A DNA stretch of 64,000 bases, taken from positions 62,001-126,000 of the forward strand of contig NZ_CANLDB010000001.1 in the NCBI RefSeq assembly GCF_947489365.1. The letters are read 5' to 3'. Under the pieces are notes generated by a model. It searched no databases, had not been told where the DNA came from, and saw only the letters and a list, made by a program, of their open reading frames with translations. Made by a program: the position numbers and the translations under genes. Shown one piece after another: positions 1,894-51,702 of this stretch (position 1 is its first letter; each line of letters opens with the position of its first letter). This stretch comes from an uncultured Nocardioides sp. GTDB taxonomy: Bacteria > Actinomycetota > Actinomycetes > Propionibacteriales > Nocardioidaceae.

Positions 1894-3177
1894 TCAGCCC
1901 GCCAGCTTCTCGGCCGCCGCGAGCCGGGCGCAGACGCAGAAGGCCTCCATCGCCTCGACGACCGACGGCAGCGACGGGAAGGTGGGGGCGAGGCGGATGT
2001 TGCGGTCCTCGGGGTCCCGGCCGTACGGAAAGGCCGAGCCGGCGGGGGTCAGGGCGACGCCGGCGTCCTTCGCCAGGGCGATGACGCGGCTCGCGGTGCC
2101 GGGCAGGACGTCGACGCTGACGAAGTAGCCGCCGAGGGGGCGGGTCCACTCCGCGATGCCCAGCCCGCCGAGCTGCTCGCCGAGCACGCGGTCGACCTCG
2201 GCGAACTTCGGCGCCACCAGGTCGCGGTGCTTCGCCATGTGGTCGCGGACGCCCTGCGCGGAGCCGAACAGCTGCGCGTGGCGCAGGTGGTTGACCTTGT
2301 CGGGCCCGATGGCGCCCTGGCCGAGGTGGTGCAGGTACCACTCGACGGTCGCGGGGGAGCCGGCGAGGAAGCCGACCCCGGCGCCCGCCCAGCTGATCTT
2401 CGAGGTCGAGGCGAACATCACGACCCGCTCGGGGTTGCCGGCCGCGGCCGCCGCGGCGAGGAGGTCGGCGCTGGCGACCTCGTCGTCGGTGAGGTGGTGC
2501 AGGGCGTAGGCGTTGTCCCACAGCACGGTGAAGTCGGGCGCGGCGGTCGGCATCGCGGCGAGCCGGTCGGCCGTCGCCTGGGAGACGACGGTGCCCGTCG
2601 GGTTCGCGTACGTCGGGACCACCCACATGCCCTTCACGGACGGGTCGTCGGCGACGAGCCGCTCGACGACGTCCATGTCGGGGCCCTCGTCGGTCTGGGG
2701 GACGGCGACCATGTCGATGCCGAACCAGTCCAGGAGGGTGAAGTGGCGGTCGTAGCCGGGGGAGGGGCACAGGAAGGTGACGCGCTCCTCGCGTCCCCAG
2801 GGGCGCTCGCTGGTCGGGCCGCCCTTGATCCACAGGTCGGCGAGGACCTCGCGCATCAGGACCAGGCTCGAGTTGCCCGAGGCGACGAGCTGCGCGGTCG
2901 GGACGCCGAGCAGCTCCGCGAAGATGGAGCGCAGGTCGGCGAGGCCGGCCAGCCCGCCGTAGTTGCGGACGTCCGTGCCGGACGAGTCCTTCGTGGCGCT
3001 CGGCAGGCCCAGCAGGCCGTCGGCGAGGTCGAGCTGCTCCGGCGCGGGCTTGCCGCGCGTGAGGTCGAGGGACAGTCCCTTCGCGGCGAGGGCGTCGTAC
3101 GCCGCGCGGGCGTCGTCACGGAAGGCGGCGAGCGCCTCGGGGGAGCGGTCGGTGAGGGCGGGGGTCTCGGCGGTCAC
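1894..3177 (-). CDS. Class I/II (MocR-like/AspAT) aminotransferase
   Basis: GTG start at 3177; VPTYANPTGTVVSQ, FASTSKISWAGAGVGF (PLP lysine region). Confidence 0.88.
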   Translation of the reverse strand: MTAETPALTDRSPEALAAFRDDARAAYDALAAKGLSLDLTRGKPAPEQLDLADGLLGLPSATKDSSGTDVRNYGGLAGLADLRSIFAELLGVPTAQLVASGNSSLVLMREVLADLWIKGGPTSERPWGREERVTFLCPSPGYDRHFTLLDWFGIDMVAVPQTDEGPDMDVVERLVADDPSVKGMWVVPTYANPTGTVVSQATADRLAAMPTAAPDFTVLWDNAYALHHLTDDEVASADLLAAAAAAGNPERVVMFASTSKISWAGAGVGFLAGSPATVEWYLHHLGQGAIGPDKVNHLRHAQLFGSAQGVRDHMAKHRDLVAPKFAEVDRVLGEQLGGLGIAEWTRPLGGYFVSVDVLPGTASRVIALAKDAGVALTPAGSAFPYGRDPEDRNIRLAPTFPSLPSVVEAMEAFCVCARLAAAEKLAG

Positions 3178-3208
3178 GGGCCCATCGTCGCACCGTCGCC
3201 GAGGCCGG

Positions 3209-3238
3209 TTCGACTTGGTCCGAGCGCCCCCGTACAGT
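3209..3238 (+). promoter_or_regulatory. Candidate sigma70-type promoter for tRNA-Trp/secE/nusG
   Basis: TTCGAC - 18 bp - TACAGT. Confidence 0.5.
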
Positions 3239-3296
3239 AAGGGTTTGGTGTCCGAGGGACGGGGATGCAGCGCGCTGCGAACCCCCCAGGACCCGG

Positions 3297-3369
3297 AGGG
3301 CACTAGCTCAACTGGCAGAGCATCGGTCTCCAAAACCGAAGGTTGGGGGTTCAAGTCCCTCGTGCCCTG
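3297..3369 (+). tRNA. tRNA-Trp (CCA)
   Basis: AGGGCAC...TCTCCAAAACC...GGTTCAAGTCCCTCGTGCCCTG; acceptor AGGGCAC/GTGCCCT pairs; upstream of secE. Confidence 0.95.
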
Positions 3370-3401
3370 CGACACGACGACGAAGCGGAAGGTGGACGAG
3401 C

Positions 3402-51413: not shown

Positions 51414-51442
51414 TTGTGGACGTCGGGGCGCCGACCTACCGT
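51414..51442 (+). promoter_or_regulatory. Promoter of the candidate structured RNA/mini-ORF
   Basis: TTGTGG - 17 bp - TACCGT. Confidence 0.65.
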
Positions 51443-51448
51443 GGAGGG

Positions 51449-51680
51449 ACACGAGGAAGGAGGTGGTCCGACAGATGAGTTCTGACAGGACACGTGAGGT
51501 GGCTGCTCGCTAGCAGCTCCACCCAGGAGCGGATCGTGCGCGTGGGACCACCCACCGCGACCCGCCGCCAGCGGTGTGGCAGCAGCTGGCACTACCGGGC
51601 AGTCACCCGGCCCGCAGGCGCTCCGGCCCGTCCGACCGGAGTCCCTCGTCACCGACGAGGGGACCACGCCTGCGGGCCGT
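51449..51680 (+). ncRNA. Candidate structured RNA with embedded 12-aa ORF (approximate 5' end)
   Basis: Promoter at 51414-51442; SD AAGGAGGT; mini-ORF 51475-51513; 3' three-way junction closed by a perfect 13-bp stem CGGCCCGCAGGCG/CGCCTGCGGGCCG. Confidence 0.6.
51475..51513 (+). CDS. 12-aa mini-ORF/leader peptide MSSDRTREVAAR
   Basis: ATG 10 nt after perfect SD AAGGAGGT (51457-51464); TAG stop inside a hairpin. Confidence 0.5.
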   Translation: MSSDRTREVAAR

Positions 51681-51702
51681 TCCCGTCTCCGGGGACGACG
51701 CC

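Follow-up and report, generated by a model that had tools for sequence, protein, structure and literature searches.

Introduction

Ms_IGR-5 is an actinobacterial small RNA (sRNA) whose original description came from M. smegmatis, and its Rfam family, RF02471, is filed as an sRNA gene. Several described systems resemble it in part. In SgrS/SgrT, SR1/SR1P and VcdRP, as in Ms_IGR-5, a small RNA transcribed from its own promoter carries a small open reading frame (ORF). The peptides of these systems are functional and longer (29 aa in VcdP), whereas the ORF of Ms_IGR-5 has 12-15 codons with an apparently weak constraint on the peptide and, unlike in these dual-function sRNAs, is interlocked with the RNA fold. 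SprF1 of S. aureus engages ribosomes through a 5′ purine-rich segment (PMC8938821), to which the 5′ end of Ms_IGR-5 can be likened, but it is an antitoxin antisense RNA without homology to Ms_IGR-5. Leader-peptide attenuators share with Ms_IGR-5 a short ORF ending in alternative hairpins, but they control a downstream gene, of which Ms_IGR-5 has no conserved one. A search of the main text of open-access papers naming the family found no description of a coding function for Ms_IGR-5. What appears to be new here is that the RF02471 family is coding, with its ORF interlocked with the fold across the phylum.

Identification of Ms_IGR-5 in the window

The window, a stretch of 64,000 nt from an uncultured Nocardioides sp., contains between pdxH and a GH13 gene an element that a sequence-only reading had proposed to be a structured RNA. 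A sequence check found every element named in that reading in place, including the promoter, the Shine-Dalgarno sequence (SD), the mini-ORF, the hairpin at its end, the 13-bp stem and the two inner hairpins. The Rfam search with cmscan revealed that positions 51449-51685 (+) match RF02471 over the full model (1-184/184) with 93.8 bits, above the gathering score of 45. The RNA itself thus belongs to a known family, of which the window copy is an ordinary member, stand-alone like the filed sRNA gene. Its folding energy is -135 kcal/mol, whereas shuffled sequences average -109.7 (z = -4.97), and matches were found in 37 of 40 relatives, which together with the Rfam score bear out the structured-RNA proposal. 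The earlier observation is right, and understated: it missed the known family and the main conserved features, namely the reading frame and the long stretch complementary to 16S rRNA. The features of the locus are as follows.

51414-51442, + strand: promoter, with -35 TTGTGG (51414-51419), a 17-nt spacer and -10 TACCGT (51437-51442); from sequence
51450-51453, + strand: helix P1, 5′ strand CACG, pairing with 51493-51496; from 109 unique homologues
51454-51469, + strand: 16S-tail complement AGGAAGGAGGUGGUCC, 16 nt without gaps, G-U allowed, containing the SD
51457-51464, + strand: SD AAGGAGGT; from sequence
51466-51469, + strand: helix P2, 5′ strand GUCC, pairing and covarying with GGAC at 51488-51491
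51475 (ATG) to 51513 (TAG), + strand: mini-ORF MSSDRTREVAAR, 12 codons, frame conserved in homologues and hold-out set
51488-51491, + strand: helix P2, 3′ strand GGAC; from covariation
51493-51496, + strand: helix P1, 3′ strand CGUG; from covariation
51498-51506, + strand: helix P4, 5′ strand GGUGGCUGC, within ORF codons 8-11, pairing with 51599-51607
51498-51523, + strand: local hairpin with the stop codon at its loop, competing with P4; from sequence
51509-51514, + strand: helix P5, 5′ strand GCUAGC, containing the stop codon; from the Rfam consensus and a by-eye reading across the phylum
51585-51590, + strand: helix P5, 3′ strand GCUGGC, pairing with 51509-51514; from the Rfam consensus and by eye
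51599-51607, + strand: helix P4, 3′ strand GCAGUCACC, with compensatory changes, just 3′ of a conserved GAAUCC-like stretch
51608-51679, + strand: 3′ domain P6, closed by a 13-bp stem (51608-51620/51667-51679); from sequence
51621-51641 and 51643-51661, + strand: inner hairpins of P6, the first with GUCC in its loop; from sequence

The source genome carries one copy of Ms_IGR-5. Among the 40 relatives searched, it was not found in G028, G031 and G039, and under strict filters a match was present in 88 of 397 genomes across the phylum. We also searched the class with a motif pattern (GGAGGTGRTY, a gap, GAGGTG, eight bases, CT) that required neither a start codon nor a frame; it matched 157 of 247 genomes and 66 of 103 genera, with few matches for the control. 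In these 247 genomes the RNA was absent from several families with small genomes, and the families without a motif match included f11, f85, f104, f105 and f111. The absence from several lineages, many of them with small genomes, would reflect loss or divergence past the reach of the search. For comparative analysis, 119 loci were extracted, some from the genus of the window and others from as far away as different classes of the phylum; 109 unique homologues were used for the frame and P1 counts, and 117 for those of the -10 element and the local hairpin.

The RF02471 match begins exactly at the predicted start site, seven nt past the -10 TACCGT. A [T/C]ANNNT -10 element at the same spacing from the RNA 5′ end was found in 102 of the 117 unique homologues, and TTG at the -35 position in 79. 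Generic sigma-70 promoter and terminator scans gave no match at the locus, both being uninformative at this G+C content. Homologues of Ms_IGR-5 are expressed, with RNA-seq support, in Streptomyces lividans (PMC8079986), S. avermitilis (PMC8780764) and M. smegmatis (PMC10454040).

Conservation of the mini-ORF and its ribosome-binding site

To assess the reading frame, we defined a canonical frame as ATG, GTG or TTG located 7-12 nt past GGAGGT, with an in-frame stop at the conserved place. It was present in 89 of the 109 unique homologues, whereas the same criterion gave 0 and 2 for the other two frames; the homologues are related by descent, and these counts do not represent independent events. 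With near-cognate starts allowed, the predicted frame was found in 104 of 109, compared with 0 and 3 for the others. The start codons among the 104 were ATG (57), TTG (22), GTG (10), CTG (6), ATC (6) and ATT (3), and the stop codons TAG (79), TGA (17) and TAA (8), the stop lying in nearly every homologue 15 nt after the start of an invariant GAGGTG. A weak near-cognate start (CTG, ATT or ATC) occurs in 15 of the 109 homologues, and five have no qualifying frame by the rules of the script. In loci such as L085, L090, L093, L098, L107 and L117, from other classes, the near-cognate starts ATC, ATT and CTG stand behind a very strong SD. Such starts recall the start codons discriminated by IF3.

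Distances from the SD to GAGGTG fall into all three classes modulo 3, and the start changes position to match (7/10, 8/11 or 9/12 nt). Since the start moves with this distance, indels in the loop are compensated and the frame is kept. In loci L108 and L115, a shorter loop (deletion) breaks the frame of GAGGTG, and a TTG...TAG is open in the new frame.

The hypothesis had been formed on the 119 loci, and it was therefore checked on a hold-out set of 84 unique new sequences from the motif search. The predicted frame was open with a canonical start in 84/84, whereas each of the other frames was open in 0/84, which is the strongest result of the analysis. The mini-ORF pointed out earlier is thus conserved in both sets. 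The frame is preserved across many families despite differing start codons, stop codons and loop lengths, and the ORF is conserved under selection as a reading frame. We consider it almost certain that RF02471 contains a conserved translated ORF, and ribosomes probably translate Ms_IGR-5 as a step in its function. Homologues in M. abscessus and M. smegmatis carry ribosome-protected reads; the authors caution that data of this type frequently include non-coding RNAs and that the protection is partly unspecific (PMC4974804).

The region around the SD, AGGAAGGAGGUGGUCC, can form a gapless 16-nt duplex with the 16S rRNA tail GGAUCACCUCCUUUCU, and a 16-nt complement is present in 103 of 119 homologues. 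Upstream of the 53 predicted genes of the window, the longest complementary run is 10 nt, and the duplex energy is -29.4 kcal/mol for Ms_IGR-5 vs. -19.0 for the best window gene, an approximate comparison as the gene starts were predicted by a simple script. Since the tail was not found in the source organism's own draft assembly, complete relatives were used, in which the presence of GGCTGGATCACCTCCTTT confirmed the 16S 3′ end. The 12-mer AGGAGGTGRTCC was considered as a unique genomic site and rejected, as it occurs at 6 sites vs. 4 for the reversed control, and the other sites look coding. In loci L100, L107 and L114, the RNA itself contains, downstream of the ORF, segments similar to the 16S tail (GCUGGACCACCU, GGGAUCACCUCC), which could mask its own SD.

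RNA fold around the ORF

The start codon sits in the loop of P2, and the SD in a bulge between P1 and P2. Across the 109 unique homologues, the first pair of P1 is an invariant C-G, the second is AU, GC, UA or CG with one mismatch, and the third is CG, UA, GC, AU or UG with zero mismatches; pairs 2 and 3 together have one mismatch in 218 cells. Contiguous pairs summed to 462, compared with 323 (sd 11.7) after the strands were re-dealt. Helix P4 occurs in compensated variants including GGUGGCUAC/GUAGCCACC, GGUGACCAU/AUGGUCACC, GGUGGCGGC/GCCGCCACC and GGUGGCUGU/ACAGCCACC. With a pairing-independent anchor, 382 of 468 cells of P4 were paired, vs. a maximum of 371 in 2000 re-deals; a first such anchor misplaced some sequences (e.g., L001), yet exceeded all 2000 re-deals. 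These results revealed an RNA structure conserved by covariation in P1 and P4. Two of the three conditions that the sequence-only reading had set for its own refutation, a lack of covariation in homologues and a lack of conservation of the mini-ORF, were checked and did not hold.

The local hairpin at 51498-51523 competes with the covarying long-range helix P4 (51498-51506/51599-51607), and local folding at the ORF end beats shuffled controls in 101 of 117 homologues. The covarying helices include the last codons of the ORF and the stop codon, which argues for the translation-dependent folding suggested earlier. The invariant GAGGUG could also be a second SD that parks the terminating ribosome, but P1 and P4 account for most of its invariance, and we do not propose this role. 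In the Rfam consensus, the SD region is paired with ORF codons, and the helices proposed here differ from it. To the description of RF02471 the present analysis adds the conserved ORF, the 16-nt complement to 16S rRNA, helix P4, and helix P1, whose bulge holds the SD.

The 3′ domain and possible regulation by base pairing

A hairpin with GUCC within its loop was found in 94 of 119 homologues, compared with 14.5 in shuffles. The loop of the first P6 hairpin (51627-51635 and its homologues) has GUCC, letters identical to those of the P2 5′ strand, and a pseudoknot between this loop and the GGAC of P2 is conceivable. P6 is possibly a terminator; no U-tract follows it at the locus. The conserved GUCC loop would also suit a conventional base-pairing sRNA that regulates mRNAs through exposed loops, with translation only tuning its stability, and in mycobacteria the RNA is reported to have been annotated and confirmed by Northern blot as an sRNA. 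Such a mode of action would leave both the conservation of the frame and the 16-nt 16S complement unexplained, and we regard it as unlikely.

Constraint on the peptide

The peptide is 12 residues long across most of the class, and 13-15 residues long in other groups. Synonymous single-step codon pairs numbered 42 vs. 32.6 expected in the 12-aa set, and 28 vs. 20.5 in the 14-aa set. The codon before GAG varies with helix P1 (CGT, TAC, GAA, TCG, AGC, CTG and others), and codons 10-11 vary with helix P4. Since the synonymous enrichment is modest and the codons change with the helices, the constraint on the peptide looks weak, and translation itself seems to be under tighter constraint than its product. 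These observations bear on the proposal that the micropeptide is the conserved product and the RNA its structured mRNA. Frame, start and stop are indeed all conserved; Ser dominates codon 3 of the 12-aa set via both TCN and AGC, and the peptides of other classes lean toward M-S-D-S-S-x-G-[TP]-[LR]-E-V-x-G-R/C, in which the Ser codons AGT, AGC, TCT and TCA interchange. However, besides the weak amino-acid constraint seen in the synonymous pairs, codons 7 and 9-11 track the helices, covariation of the stem swaps the residue at codon 7 (R, C, S, E or Y), and the length ranges from 12 to 15, and this proposal seems to us quite improbable.

Genomic setting

In the window, the gene downstream of the RNA is convergent, as in many homologues. 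In several clades the flanking genes are pdxH and citrate synthase, in differing orientations, and the neighbors in other clades are unrelated, namely an MFS exporter, an aminotransferase-like protein, a DNA ligase and a gyrase-A-like protein (named by eye). As the neighbors differ in kind and orientation, Ms_IGR-5 is an independent unit. Across the homologue loci we found no conserved gene downstream in the same direction, in agreement with the "orphan unit" of the sequence-only reading. Its preference for a stand-alone sRNA or dual-function RNA over an attenuator is likewise upheld by the Rfam match, the lack of conserved neighbors and the mycobacterial ribosome footprints (PMC4974804). At locus L060, in another family of the order, a gene for the release-factor-like protein acVLRF1 (PF18859) lies 43 nt past the RNA, at 2750-3385 in coordinates oriented to the RNA; as a partner it was dropped, being present at this one locus only.

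In the window's genus, a co-directional gene of the MFS drug-efflux type lies 3′ of the RNA in 19 loci (among L003-L028 and L061), and an ABC transporter gene often lies 5′ of it; in the source genome pdxH and GH13 take these places. Together with a layout resembling a leader peptide, these 19 loci could point to a cis-acting ribosome-mediated attenuator, in which the state of translation would choose between the ORF-end hairpin and termination by P4/P6. Against this stand the convergent downstream gene in the window and many homologues, the unrelated neighbors between clades and, as judged by eye, a separate palindromic promoter-like region that seems to precede the MFS gene in that genus. 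Cis attenuation of the MFS gene was rejected, the pattern being confined to one genus, and we consider an attenuator very doubtful for the RNA. Finally, the idea that structure alone is conserved and the ORF is coincidental, its start- and stop-like triplets being structural letters, can draw on the location of GAGGTG and the CTAG region within helices, where pairing fixes some letters, but it is scarcely credible, as the frame data already contradict it: the three stop codons replace one another, as do at least three start codons, the starts shift yet keep the frame, and the hold-out set gave 84/84 vs. 0/84.

Proposed mechanism and significance

We favor, with about as much belief as doubt, the reading that Ms_IGR-5 is a translated, structured ribosome-binding RNA in which folding and translation are mutually exclusive and which acts in trans. 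Transcription would start at about 51449, and the 30S subunit would be recruited through pairing of the 16S tail with 51454-51469. This pairing would reach into the 5′ strand of P2, so that strand exchange opens the start-codon hairpin. The ribosome would translate the 12 codons (13-15 in some homologues) and stop within P4/P5. Its presence would block P1, P2, P4 and P5, and in its absence the RNA would fold. The peptide would probably be a by-product, with ribosome occupancy coupled to the RNA fold as the conserved function. Because a cis gene is not conserved, the output would most likely be in trans, the RNA sampling or tying up initiating ribosomes, perhaps with an action on ribosomes like that described for the unrelated SprF1 (PMC8938821). 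Comparison among homologues supplies the family membership, the conserved frame, the 16S complementarity, the covarying helices and the stand-alone position; beyond these we infer translation in the source organism, a two-state switch and a trans effect on translation.

A more far-reaching version, which we hold to be speculative and rather unlikely, is a phylum-wide, translation-gated sensor of free 30S subunits, which in its folded form would control ribosome supply or translation in trans. Here the start hairpin would open only when the full 16S tail invades it by strand exchange, and translating a throw-away peptide would unfold the effector domain. If true, it would represent a class of riboregulators with ribosome availability as the input and an output other than a cis gene. 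Ms_IGR-5, catalogued in mycobacteria and Streptomyces simply as an sRNA, carries a mini-ORF that is conserved in several actinobacterial classes and, if translation gates its fold, the phylum would have an unrecognized ribosome-responsive regulator.
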